This document shows positions 11,085-16,470 of a DNA stretch of 58,190 nt, piece by piece. The position numbers and the translations under genes are program-made. Under the pieces are notes generated by a model that did not search any database, was not told the origin of the DNA, and saw nothing but the letters and a program-made list of their open reading frames with translations. The stretch is from Clostridiaceae bacterium (GTDB taxonomy: Bacteria > Bacillota > Clostridia > DSM-8532): positions 1-58,190 of the forward strand of contig DUNT01000128.1 in the NCBI GenBank assembly GCA_012839205.1, in the 5' to 3' direction. Within the stretch, counting starts at the first letter, position 1; each line of letters begins with the position of its first letter.

Positions 11085-11245
11085 ATTTATGTTTGTTTTA
11101 ACTTCAAGAAAAGATTAGTTGCAGACAGGTATCATCTATTACAAAAGGCCCATGGGATAATAGGTCTCTATATACATAATGATAGTTATTTTGGTTGATA
11201 CAAGATAAGTATGCATTGATGATAAAATTTATATTAGGTGATAAT

Positions 11246-12169
11246 ATGCATATTTTATCCAAAAAAACAAAACATGAAAATGGTTCAGTTATAGTGTTCT
11301 TTGCTTTATGTATGACAGTAATGCTGGGAGTTTGTGCTCTGGTAATCGATTATGGAATTCTTGTCCATAAGAGAATTACTTTAAGTAACGCCGTAGACGC
11401 AGCTGCGCTGGCGGGGGCACAGGAATTGATATTTAACAGAGACAATGCCGAAACAGTGGCAAAGAGTTACCTGGAAGCCAATGGTGTAAATCCCTTGGAT
11501 GCCGAAGTAATTGTATATGATTCAGGTACAAAAATCAGAGTAACAGCAAAAAATGACGTGAATCACTATTTTGCACGAATATTTGGGTTCGATAAAGGAA
11601 AAGCTGAAGCCACCGGTGCTGCAATGTGGGCTCCTGTTATCGGTGTATATGAAGGTATCAGACCATTTGCGATAGAGAAGCAGCCTTTGGAATTTGGTCT
11701 GCAATATGTGTTAAAAGAAGGCGGTGGGGGAGGCTCTAACGGCAATTACGGAGCTCTGGCACTAAGCGGGAATGGGGCAAGTACCTATGTAAACAATATT
11801 ATCAACGGATATGACGGACATCTTCGGGTAGGAGACTATGTGGAAACCGAGCCCGGAAATATGAGCGGGCCCACCGTACAAGGGGTCAACACACTTATAA
11901 GCCGATGCAACCATACACCAGAATGTACTTATGATAATTATAATTCGAATTGTCCTCGTATAATTACAGTTATTATGGTGGACACTCTGAGTGTAAATGG
12001 CAGAAGCAATGTAAGAATCGCAGGTTTCGCCAGATTTTTCTTAGAAGAGGTTGAGGGACATGGTAATGAATGTGTTGTAACCGGCAGATTCTTAAATACT
12101 GTTATGTCGGGTGAACTCGGTGATATAGAAGAAGATTTTGGACTGAAGGGAGTAAAACTTATTCAATAG
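11246..12169 (+). CDS. TadG-like (pilus-assembly type) secreted or membrane protein
   Basis: Protein of 307 residues. The N-terminus (NGSVIVFFALCMTVMLGVCALVIDYG) is the type IV pilin-like hydrophobic segment found in TadE/TadG proteins. It is followed by LSNAVDAAALAGAQEL, the hallmark of the TadG N-terminal region. The rest is probably outside the cell; it has a Gly-rich stretch and four Cys in the NHTPECTYDNYNSNC area. No other tad genes lie in this window, so its role is open. The ATG at 11246 has AGGTG five bases upstream; a TTG at 11195 would add 17 residues. The stop codon sits inside a hairpin. Confidence 0.7.
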   Translation: MHILSKKTKHENGSVIVFFALCMTVMLGVCALVIDYGILVHKRITLSNAVDAAALAGAQELIFNRDNAETVAKSYLEANGVNPLDAEVIVYDSGTKIRVTAKNDVNHYFARIFGFDKGKAEATGAAMWAPVIGVYEGIRPFAIEKQPLEFGLQYVLKEGGGGGSNGNYGALALSGNGASTYVNNIINGYDGHLRVGDYVETEPGNMSGPTVQGVNTLISRCNHTPECTYDNYNSNCPRIITVIMVDTLSVNGRSNVRIAGFARFFLEEVEGHGNECVVTGRFLNTVMSGELGDIEEDFGLKGVKLIQ

Positions 12170-12467: not shown

Positions 12468-14174
12468 ATGAAGAAAATTTTGATTTTCATATCATTTGTA
12501 TTGCTGGGGATGTTATTTTTTTTACCGATAATATCTGCAAGCGCTTCAGAAATTGCTCATCTGGGATTTGTGGAGTCTGACGTAATTCTGCAACCTTCAG
12601 GAAATGCTATAGTAACATATACAGTACGTTATAATTTGGTACCGGGGAAAACCATGCTGGCATTTACATTAGAAGGATTCGATGAACTTCATCCTATTTT
12701 TGATGATGATTTTTCCTGTGTCGTAAAAGATGATAATTCGGTCTTTGATATAGATATTATTGATCTTGGCGGTGGAAGATACGATATTATTAACTCCGGA
12801 AATAACCGCCTTGGAGGAGAATATCTCACGTACAAAATCCGCTTTACGGCAGATATGGCCGAGGCCGGATATCTGGCGAGAACAATATCGGAAGATGGAA
12901 AATCGCTGGTGGTATTCCATTGGCAGCCTGTACAGTGGGATGAGGCTATGGAGCATTATACGGTAGCTGTGAATTATCCCTTGAAATTTCCTGAAGGTTC
13001 GGGTACAAGAGAGGAAGTAGAAGAATTCCTGCTTCAGAATGATTTTGCCACCGAAGCCTGGATGAACGAAGAATATCTGATTGATTACAGGGTAAACCAG
13101 CTTAACTCAGTTCCGCGGGTACAGGTATTACTCCATAAAAACAATCCTCCACAAAGATATAACTTCGAGATTCAACAGTATATCTCAGACAACCTTTTTA
13201 ATGAGATGCCGGATTACAATAAAAAGCCTCCCGTCGATGAAAAGCCTATTGACGAATATCCCCAGGTGCCCTACCAGCCAGATAGCGGAAGGCTTGATTC
13301 AAGCAGGCCTTATAACAATGAATCCACAGACAGATGGACTATGTTATTCTTATTTATAATCCTGGCTATAGGAACAACAATTTTTGTTGGCCTCAAGCAT
13401 CGTTCTGTAATAAAAGCACGGACTTCCTATGAAGAAATTAAGTGGGCAAGGGAAGACTGGGCTCCCCCTCAACTGGAGGTAGCTTCATTCAGAAAAGATG
13501 GCTTTGTGATTGAAGATCTTGATGTGGTGGAAGCGGCTGTTCTTATAGGAATACCATACAACAACATACTGTCTGTTATTCTGTATAAACTGATAGATAA
13601 AGGCTATTTAGAAGAGATATCAATAGAACCATTAAGAGTAAAACAAGTAAAAGGAAAAGACTTAACCGGATTGCCTCAATATGAAAAACTTATGTATGCT
13701 GCAGCAGCAGACGAAGAGTTCAGCGAGCAGGAGATAGAAAACATATTGAAGTGGCTTGTGGATACTGTCAGAGCCAAGACCTGGAACTGCGATATTGAAG
13801 CTACAAAAGAATACTATATGAATAAATTCCAGCACTCATATAATGAGCAAAACCACGAAGAATATGAAGAGTATCAAAGATACTATGATGAACCATATTA
13901 CTATCATTGGCATTATTACTATATGTACCATAATCACATATATAACCGCAGAAGATACCGTGATTATCATAATAGAATAAAGGTGAATGCAAATAAAACT
14001 GTATCCAATTCTATAATCGATACAGATAAGGGTGTGTATGCCTGCCATGATGCCTGCCACTCGGCTTGTCATTCGGCTTGCCACGACGCTTGCCACTCTG
14101 CCTGTCATTCGGCCTGTCACTCAGCCTGTCATTCAGCCTGCCATTCTGCATGTGTCAGCGGAGGTGCAAGGTGA
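12468..14174 (+). CDS. DUF2207-like membrane protein with a C-terminal (ACHS)n repeat tail
   Basis: Protein of 568 residues. It has a signal peptide (about 1-27), a DUF2207-like extracytoplasmic domain to about 285, one transmembrane helix (about 290-310) and a cytoplasmic part. The cytoplasmic part has a winged-helix-like region (near 350-400), a Tyr/His-rich segment (about 472-495) and, at residues 525-564, ten tetrapeptides: nine ACH[S/D] and one ACVS, then GGAR. Cys and His thus recur every four residues, which would line one face of a helix. The gene overlaps the radical SAM gene by GTGA and is read just before it. I infer that the tail is the substrate of that enzyme, or a metal site. 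The DUF2207 call rests on recalled features. Confidence 0.8.
   Translation: MKKILIFISFVLLGMLFFLPIISASASEIAHLGFVESDVILQPSGNAIVTYTVRYNLVPGKTMLAFTLEGFDELHPIFDDDFSCVVKDDNSVFDIDIIDLGGGRYDIINSGNNRLGGEYLTYKIRFTADMAEAGYLARTISEDGKSLVVFHWQPVQWDEAMEHYTVAVNYPLKFPEGSGTREEVEEFLLQNDFATEAWMNEEYLIDYRVNQLNSVPRVQVLLHKNNPPQRYNFEIQQYISDNLFNEMPDYNKKPPVDEKPIDEYPQVPYQPDSGRLDSSRPYNNESTDRWTMLFLFIILAIGTTIFVGLKHRSVIKARTSYEEIKWAREDWAPPQLEVASFRKDGFVIEDLDVVEAAVLIGIPYNNILSVILYKLIDKGYLEEISIEPLRVKQVKGKDLTGLPQYEKLMYAAAADEEFSEQEIENILKWLVDTVRAKTWNCDIEATKEYYMNKFQHSYNEQNHEEYEEYQRYYDEPYYYHWHYYYMYHNHIYNRRRYRDYHNRIKVNANKTVSNSIIDTDKGVYACHDACHSACHSACHDACHSACHSACHSACHSACHSACVSGGAR
14040..14159 (+). repeat. Ten tandem 12-bp units encoding ACHS/ACHD/ACVS
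   Basis: Ten in-frame units of 12 bases encode, in order, ACHD, ACHS, ACHS, ACHD, five ACHS and ACVS. Synonymous codons vary freely: Cys is TGC or TGT, His CAC or CAT, Ser TCG, TCT or TCA, Ala GCC, GCT or GCA. The peptide pattern is therefore kept while the DNA has drifted, which argues for selection on the protein rather than recent slippage. Confidence 0.95.
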
Positions 14175-15499
14175 AGAAGCATAAGTTAGCATGGGTTGAT
14201 GACTTTATAATGAAGATAAAGCCCTACATATATATGAGGCTTATAGATAATGTGCTTATTCGTATGCCTAATGAAGCCTTTAAACTTAATTCTACGGGGG
14301 CTAAGGTAATTGACTATATTCTTTCAGGGGGCTCGGTCCAGGACATTATTAAGGCCAGACGAGACTACCCTGAAACTGAGGAACAACTGGAACGCTTTTT
14401 TACCGACTTTTCACTTATGTGGAATGGGAGGGTTTGCGAGAATTATAATACCCCTGCTATCCACAGAACCGAGTTTAACCTTGGCTATATAAAACTTCCT
14501 GTACTGTCTGAAGTAGCTTTAACGTATACCTGTAATGTCCGGTGCAGGTTCTGCTATGCGGATTGCACTCAAAAAGAGGTTGAAAGCCAGCTTGATACCG
14601 AGGGTTTCAAAAGGGTTCTCGATATAATCCGATATGATGCACAAGTGCCCAGCGTTTCATTTACCGGTGGAGAACCAACAACTTACAAGGAACTAACCGA
14701 GCTTATCCGCTATGCATCAAAGAATAACAAGATGAGAGTAAATCTCATTACCAATGGCACCTTGATTACACCACAAAAAGCAAAGGAATTTGCAGAAGCC
14801 GGTCTTTCTTCTGCTCAGGTGAGTATTGAATCTGCAATAGCCCGGGAACATGATGAAATTACAGGGGTTAAAGGTTCACATCAGGCCTCGGTAAACGGAT
14901 TGAAATCATTAATAGATGCAGATATTATTGCTCACCCACACTTGACTGTATGTACTATGAATAAAGACAATTTACAAAAATATCCGGAATTCTGTAAGAG
15001 TATTGGAGTAGAAAGGTTCTCCTCAAACCTGGTTATCCCCTCAGGCAGAGGCGAAGCACAGGACTTGACGGTAGAATATCAAGAGATTGGAAATATTGTT
15101 GAAAATCTTCAGTCCGCAGCAAGAAGTTCGGGAGTTGAATACATGTGGTATTCGCCTACCCCGATATGTCTGTTTAACCCTATTGCAGCCGGGTTTGGCA
15201 ATAAAGGCTGCAGCGCCTGTGAGGGATTATTATCAGTTGATCCAGGCGGTAATATTTTACCCTGCTCCAGTTGGTCTGAGCCTATGGGGAATTTACTGGA
15301 GGAGGGGTTTGAGGCAATATGGTTTAATAAACGAAGCCAATTCATAAGAGATAAAAAATCAGCTCCTGCTAAGTGCAGAGAATGCAGAGATTTTGCCGTA
15401 TGTCAGGGGGCATGCCCGCTTTATTTCGATGCCCACGGCTGTGAAGAATTAGAGGCAATTTGGGATATGAAGGGTCTTAAAGGAAAGGAGTATGTATGA
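14171..15499 (+). CDS. Radical SAM/SPASM enzyme with N-terminal PqqD-like domain
   Basis: Probable peptide- or protein-modifying enzyme of 442 residues. Residues 17-85 (MPNEAFKLNSTGAKVIDYIL, then SGGSVQDII) resemble PqqD, the precursor-binding domain of many RiPP enzymes. The radical SAM cluster is C121-x3-C125-x2-C128 (CNVRCRFC), followed by FTGGEPT. A SPASM domain near 345-430 offers C347, C350, C365, C402, C405, C411 and C415 for auxiliary iron-sulfur clusters. The GTG at 14171 has GGAGG six bases upstream and overlaps the stop of the repeat-tailed protein. The gene also overlaps the next gene by four bases. Likely chemistry is a Cys- or His-directed crosslink in the ACHS tail; that is inference. 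Confidence 0.9.
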   Translation: MKKHKLAWVDDFIMKIKPYIYMRLIDNVLIRMPNEAFKLNSTGAKVIDYILSGGSVQDIIKARRDYPETEEQLERFFTDFSLMWNGRVCENYNTPAIHRTEFNLGYIKLPVLSEVALTYTCNVRCRFCYADCTQKEVESQLDTEGFKRVLDIIRYDAQVPSVSFTGGEPTTYKELTELIRYASKNNKMRVNLITNGTLITPQKAKEFAEAGLSSAQVSIESAIAREHDEITGVKGSHQASVNGLKSLIDADIIAHPHLTVCTMNKDNLQKYPEFCKSIGVERFSSNLVIPSGRGEAQDLTVEYQEIGNIVENLQSAARSSGVEYMWYSPTPICLFNPIAAGFGNKGCSACEGLLSVDPGGNILPCSSWSEPMGNLLEEGFEAIWFNKRSQFIRDKKSAPAKCRECRDFAVCQGACPLYFDAHGCEELEAIWDMKGLKGKEYV

Positions 15500-16470
15500 A
15501 AAACAGGAAAATACCGGGGTTCCCTTTACCTGAAGATCAGGATGCCATTAAATTTCATATCTTTAAAGAACTTTCATATACAACCAGAATGTTGATTTAT
15601 TCAGGATGTATAATAATCGGATTTCTCCTGCAGATAATTACACTCAATATTTGGCCGGGCGCTATTCTTCTTATATTCGCTTCATTATTGATCCTGGTTA
15701 AAGGCTACAGCACAAAGCCATCCCAGTCAATACGAAAAAGCAGCTGGACCAGGACCAATATGGATAAAGTGCATCAGATCAATCAGATTAAACAGAGTAT
15801 TGACAAATGGGACAAGGATGCATTGGATATAAGCAATGGACTGGGGTGCATCACCTTTATCCTGGTATTTATCATTATTGCTTTTATATATGCTGGTATA
15901 GCCGTAAAAATAAGCGGCAGGGCAGCTGGTATATTTATAGCAGATTCAATTATACTGATAGCATCAGTATGGTTTAACGGCATGAGAAAAAAAGGCCACC
16001 AGGCAATACTATATATTAAAACAGATATAGTTGTTGAGCTGGAAATGTATTTTGAAACCATTAAGAAAACCGGAGAAAATTATGTCCCTTCCATGGCGCT
16101 GGCTAAAGACAAAGAAGGAAAGGAATTTCCAACCGATTGCCGTTTTAATATTGTATTTGATAATGCTCCGGCTGATTTTTACGGAATTCAGGCTCAAATC
16201 AACATCAATTCTGTTAACAGTACCAACTATCCTTATTTTTATTGTGTCATAACAGCCAAGAAAGACTTTGGGCTTGATAAATATGAAAAAAGGCTGGTTA
16301 TTCCTAAAGGCATCACAATACAGTTTTCAGGAGACGAGGACGCTGAAGTTATTGTTATTCGTCAGCGCACAACCAAGAATTCGGGATACCATACAAAACC
16401 AGATGCCCGAAAAACCATATTGGAATTTTCATTGAATCTTGCGAGAATTATTATTGAGGATAACAAGTAA
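15496..16470 (+). CDS. Membrane protein of the radical SAM cluster, unknown function
   Basis: I do not recognise this 324-residue protein. It has two pairs of hydrophobic helices (about 34-75 and 115-165) separated by a polar loop with Lys, Gln and Trp (IKQSIDKWDKDALD). The C-terminal half is soluble and rich in beta-type segments (CRFNIVFDNAPADFYGIQAQ). Its ATG overlaps the radical SAM stop (ATGA), so it belongs to the same operon and is co-translated. It could be a partner of the DUF2207-like protein or a transporter-like component; nothing in the sequence decides. Its stop is directly abutted by the stop of the convergent gene. Confidence 0.75.
   Translation: MKNRKIPGFPLPEDQDAIKFHIFKELSYTTRMLIYSGCIIIGFLLQIITLNIWPGAILLIFASLLILVKGYSTKPSQSIRKSSWTRTNMDKVHQINQIKQSIDKWDKDALDISNGLGCITFILVFIIIAFIYAGIAVKISGRAAGIFIADSIILIASVWFNGMRKKGHQAILYIKTDIVVELEMYFETIKKTGENYVPSMALAKDKEGKEFPTDCRFNIVFDNAPADFYGIQAQININSVNSTNYPYFYCVITAKKDFGLDKYEKRLVIPKGITIQFSGDEDAEVIVIRQRTTKNSGYHTKPDARKTILEFSLNLARIIIEDNK

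Follow-up and report, generated by a model that had tools for sequence, protein, structure and literature searches.

A translationally coupled three-gene operon, A-B-C, lies within the window (the whole 58,190-nucleotide stretch of Clostridiaceae DNA that was analysed). Gene A encodes a membrane protein that ends in a strictly regular Cys/His repeat, gene B a radical SAM/SPASM protein, and gene C a second membrane protein. B probably modifies the tail of A in place, with the tail staying anchored to its carrier. The features on which the argument draws are these:

12468-14174, + strand: gene A, 568 aa, membrane protein (open reading frame and translation)
14040-14153, + strand: repeat tail of A, ACHDACHSACHSACHDACHSACHSACHSACHSACHSAC, that is, AC(H-S/D-A-C)9
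14154-14174, + strand: codons VSGGAR-stop of A, with GGAGGT, the ribosome-binding site of gene B, and the GTGA stop/start overlap
14171-15499, + strand: gene B, 442 aa, GTG start, radical SAM/SPASM protein
15496-16470, + strand: gene C, 324 aa, four predicted transmembrane helices
Protein A, residues 1-26: predicted signal peptide
Protein A, residues 27-245: DUF2207-like extracytoplasmic domain (~220 residues)
Protein A, about residues 291-309: single predicted transmembrane helix, followed by positive residues
Protein A, residues 311-452: cytoplasmic winged-helix-like domain
Protein A, residues 453-496: variable linker, followed by a pre-tail segment and the Cys/His tail
Protein B, residues 34-75: weak PqqD-like (RRE) N-terminal region
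Protein B, residues 121-128: CxxxCxxC
Protein B, residues 347, 350, 365, 402, 405, 411 and 415: SPASM-region Cys
Protein C, about residues 172-324: cytosolic domain, candidate YbjN/secretion-chaperone-like fold

Gene A overlaps B by the four bases GTGA, and B overlaps C by ATGA; the open reading frames and these overlaps bear out the gene calls and the translational coupling proposed in an earlier note on this DNA. Its three-gene observation as a whole is confirmed, and is stronger than the sequence of the window alone could show. The module is carried by 30 genomes, which belong to at least five families: that of the window, one that includes what is presumably Acetivibrio (Clostridium) thermocellus ATCC 27405 (G364), and others in other classes of the phylum. 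(The genomes being related, the 30 loci are not 30 independent events.) A and B are adjacent in all 30 and their stop-start overlap is kept in all 30, with B starting at GTG, ATG or TTG. Within the window's order, 14 of 33 genomes have A, and the same 14 have B and C. Of 391 Clostridia genomes, 16 contain a DNA pattern that encodes four ACHx repeats in a row, and none contains the reversed control pattern; together with the shared 14 of 33, this puts the association far beyond chance. A profile of B (E <= 1e-60) selects exactly the same 16 of 391 genomes, all of them at E 1e-217 or better, with nothing in the gap between these two values. A B orthologue without a repeat-tailed A, the finding that the earlier note would have counted against itself, does not occur among the 391. 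The tail pattern served to find part of the set of loci; the searches with A and B are independent of it and give the same picture.

The search for C in Clostridia returns the same 16 genomes plus G205, as well as a weak, unrelated-looking match in G145. The C orthologue of G205 (G205:C37:9427-10407; L106, L109) lies at a contig edge, and A and B were not found elsewhere in this 99% complete draft, reflecting either an assembly gap or loss. A scan of 398 genomes of the phylum adds three more carriers in other classes, all with A-B-C in order, and A is present in 12 of the 14 genomes of G364's family. The main genus groups are the same in the trees of all three genes. The tail-pattern scan of viral contigs yielded nine matches, all of them short frames in unrelated low-complexity DNA (IMG/VR contigs L116-L118, for example, have a short low-complexity frame of ACNS/ACHS repeats that has nothing to do with the module), and plasmid records yielded only distant radical SAM proteins.

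The genes that flank the module are not conserved beyond close relatives, which marks it as a self-contained unit, and comparison of these flanking genes reveals no conserved peptidase or exporter family beside it. A gene for a TadE/TadG-like Flp pilus protein lies just upstream of A in the window (11195-12169, + strand); a TadE/TadG-like gene is also found near the module in L020 and L030, on different sides, probably by chance. An Rfam scan around the operon gave no match, and promoter and terminator scans of the window did no better than shuffles. In the 150 bases read upstream of A, TTGACA-16/17-TATACT-like sites are seen at L026, L027, L028, L029, L030, L031, L065 and L069; the window's own copy of A has no such clear site upstream. 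These sites, in several genera, suggest housekeeping (sigma-A-type) expression of the module.

In the window, A ends in nine ACHx tetrapeptides (ACHD at the first and fourth, ACHS at the other seven) followed by AC-VSGGAR: ten Cys-bearing repeats, as previously described, with His after nine of the ten Cys. The tetrapeptide tail thus stands, but ACHx is not its natural unit: it is better read as (H-S/D-A-C)8-9, the whole array as AC(H-S/D-A-C)8-9, because H, A and C are then without any exception in the array. They are invariant in all 267 HxAC units of the 30 tails (the raw count is 268, which includes an HFAC match in L030 that lies beyond the array and is left out). The last residue of ACHx is S in 218, D in 47 and T in 2, so that Ser/Asp account for 265 of 267, and the length of the tail is nearly fixed, at 9-10 Cys. 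Under the ACHx reading the deviations are AW in G245 and VC in G505 and G686, all in the first dipeptide. That is the expected place for them if the partner of each Cys lies upstream of it, and from these three deviations we infer that the first AC may be spare and the last AC needed.

Over the 38 tail codons, pairs of genomes differ on average by 20.2 silent versus 2.4 amino-acid-changing codon differences, the latter nearly always Ser/Asp. Silent sites near saturation combined with fixed residues establish that selection acts on the tail at the protein level. Repeats within one gene differ at 2.62 of 12 bases, and repeats of different genes at 2.48; being no more alike within genes than between them, the repeats form an old array that has not been homogenised. 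RNA structure was considered as a reason for the repeat and rejected: the tail RNA folds worse than shuffles (z +2.1). The SGGA(R) at the very end of A is invariant, and its codons form the ribosome-binding site and start of B (GGAGGT...NTGA), a role that the earlier note overlooked; the last residue of A, which is R, K or D, changes with the codons that A shares with the start of B (GTG, ATG or TTG). This C-terminal segment is therefore accounted for, at least partly, by gene expression.

B matches Pfam Radical_SAM (PF04055) at 84.8 bits and SPASM (PF13186) at 35 bits, and C121, C125 and C128 as well as seven SPASM-region Cys are invariant in 18 B sequences. The radical SAM/SPASM assignment made previously holds; the PqqD-like domain that went with it is weak, scoring 16.5 bits against a cut-off of 23.4 in the window copy, with 6 of 18 relatives matching at E 0.1 or better (best E 7.8e-5). 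The best NCBIfam score of B is 134.9 bits against a cut-off of 500, and it falls far below the cut-off of every model listed. Among solved structures B is closest to the sactipeptide synthase SkfB (E 9e-22), an enzyme with an RRE that forms a thioether between Cys and an alpha carbon (PMC6231123). The likeness to SkfB, CteB, SuiB and PapB extends to the radical SAM core, the Cys of SPASM-type auxiliary clusters and, through its weak match, the putative N-terminal RRE/PqqD-like region; the substrates of those enzymes, however, are small free peptides. The earlier note overstates the case in saying that repeated Cys-rich precursors are what radical SAM enzymes of the PqqD/SPASM kind "usually" act on.

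The predicted topology of A, a signal peptide and then one transmembrane helix, leaves the tail on the cytosolic side, where B is, and so bears out the placement originally suggested. A second hydrophobic stretch (residues ~353-371), within the winged-helix-like part, is present in some members only. The DUF2207-like label is another matter: the window copy of A has no Pfam match and hence no DUF2207 call, and the label holds in one relative, L024 (25.5 bits against a cut-off of 24.4), the others being sub-threshold (1 of 10 relatives scanned individually passes). The resemblance is to A's N-terminal domain; the DUF2207_C region is not recognised in A, and the Cys/His tail is absent from DUF2207 models. 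In the cytoplasmic domain there is a faint match to TIGR04222 (in L068, 13.4 bits over residues 338-432 against a cut-off of 43), seen in 2 of 18 A members (best E 4.2e-5) and not in the window copy. Both carrier domains are conserved between groups (66% and 58% identity). The segment before the tail is poorly conserved (between-group identity 0.33) and contains no strongly conserved leader-like segment. An AlphaFold model of A, made with three close sequences, had a pLDDT of 32 and was discarded.

C is a membrane protein, as had been noted, though perhaps not one that defies placement: its cytosolic domain, modelled with a pLDDT of about 80-90 in most blocks, resembles known folds. VIA-align gives Z 9.3 to 1yb3, 8.3 to Spa15 and 7.3 to YbjN. 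It is the only method that grouped C with the YbjN/chaperone folds, Foldseek finding no match at E <= 0.001 (best E 0.02), so that a YbjN/type III secretion chaperone-like domain is only a lead. Proteins of this fold serve to hold polypeptide segments.

One genome offers what amounts to a natural knock-out. In G298 (L066, a single-contig genome) A lacks its middle, about 270 codons, and has a frameshift before the tail; B has lost everything after residue 368, including its last four SPASM Cys, and forms a single 721-aa ORF with C; a 52-aa ORF, MDSKTGVF-tail, remains. The locus is apparently decaying, tail and enzyme together, and this joint decay counts in support of modification of the tail by B.

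What these observations favour is a dedicated protein-modification module, and the idea put forward in the earlier note, of a radical SAM enzyme whose substrate is a tail that belongs to a membrane protein, gains support as an inferred enzyme-substrate relation. A would carry a RiPP-like core, AC(H-S/D-A-C)8-9, as its cytoplasmic C-terminus. B would bind the cytoplasmic part of A and modify the HxAC units one after another, crosslinking or otherwise altering each of them by analogy with SkfB. A thioether would be the most likely chemistry, with the sulfur of each Cys bonded to a residue that precedes it in its own HxAC unit. The product, a crosslinked and possibly metal-binding domain, would be kept at the inner face of the membrane, since the module brings no gene for a peptidase or exporter with it, and would be coupled to the extracytoplasmic DUF2207-like domain of A. 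C would be a membrane partner whose chaperone-like cytosolic domain probably holds or presents the tail. Modification in place has to contend with the weakness of the PqqD match, which is below cut-off in the window copy, with the lack of a strongly conserved leader-like segment before the tail, and with a His as invariant as the Cys, which would suit metal binding too.

This last point leads to the alternative that survives best, though it is unlikely: the tail may be an unmodified Cys/His element for metal binding or redox function (Fe-S, Ni, Zn or Cu), with B as a redox or metal partner or as the modifier of some other part of A, or of C. The His found in all 267 units, the suitability of alternating Cys and His for metal ligation and the weak PqqD evidence speak for it. 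However, Ala is no less fixed than the ligands, and neither is Ser/Asp, found in 265 of 267 units; the number of Cys hardly varies from 9-10. Tails rich in His or Cys that bind metal usually change both sequence and length in the course of evolution; moreover, a pure metal site would not call for a radical SAM enzyme of its own in each genome. Still less probable is a conventional RiPP pathway, in which B would modify the tail and a protease encoded elsewhere would cut it from A for release or export. The tail is core-like, C-terminal and preceded by a variable linker, and the MDSKTGVF-tail ORF left in G298 looks the part; but that ORF sits in a decaying locus, no peptidase or exporter family accompanies the module, and the membrane-bound two-domain carrier is conserved (66%, 58%) like a working protein. 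That the regular 12-base repeat matters at the level of DNA or RNA, or has recently expanded in tandem, and is meaningless at the protein level, is refuted already, to the point of practical exclusion, by fixed residues at near-saturated silent sites, by repeats no more alike within a gene than between genes, and by RNA that folds worse than shuffles.

As with RiPP maturases that have an RRE, the candidate precursor adjoins its enzyme at 30 of 30 loci and occurs in the same 16 of 391 genomes; in place of a short leader-core precursor, the carrier here is a membrane protein of roughly 570 aa. The NCBIfam model TIGR04117 (Syntroph_Cxxx), annotated as a radical SAM target, likewise has Cys at every fourth residue and is matched by 18 of 18 aligned A proteins at E up to 1. 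It was nonetheless rejected on score as the family of A (20 bits for the window copy and 31.5 for the best of its relatives against a cut-off of 50), and no match in 291 Clostridia genomes is over the cut-off; its 98 positions include no membrane carrier domain and match A only in the tail.

The closest published analogue of A-B-C, which the earlier note missed, is the set of Cys-tailed TIGR04222 membrane proteins encoded beside MNIO (DUF692) enzymes. They are described as likely MNIO substrates with periplasmic tails, and a third of the genomes with TIGR04222 lack an MNIO (PMC12452194). Common to both systems are a large membrane protein with a low-complexity Cys tail and a neighbouring gene for a RiPP-type modifying enzyme; in a few A members the cytoplasmic domain also shows the faint TIGR04222 match given above. 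The enzyme here is a radical SAM/SPASM protein, whereas there it is an MNIO; the tail here is predicted to be cytoplasmic rather than periplasmic, and consists of a strictly regular, invariant repeat; the association is exact here and loose there; and gene C has no counterpart described there. A full-text literature search, with most subscription journals outside its range, turned up no publication that deals with this module.

The peptides for which radical SAM RiPP enzymes are known are small, and are secreted or act in signalling. If the preferred reading is true, their chemistry would also serve stationary protein parts, here the invariant modified tail of a large membrane protein, as an anchored counterpart of the small modified peptides usual for such enzymes. 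It would also provide a second, independent and much more regular example for the idea of Cys-tailed membrane precursors, published for TIGR04222/MNIO but untested. There is perhaps an even chance that the product is a permanent, regularly crosslinked (HxAC)n rod, built by a radical SAM enzyme on the cytoplasmic end of a transmembrane protein and serving as a standing part of a membrane machine (a sensor, or a metal or electron conduit) rather than as something released. One carrier is apparently the cultured, non-pathogenic thermophile A. thermocellus ATCC 27405, a biofuel organism, in which the question is open to experiment.
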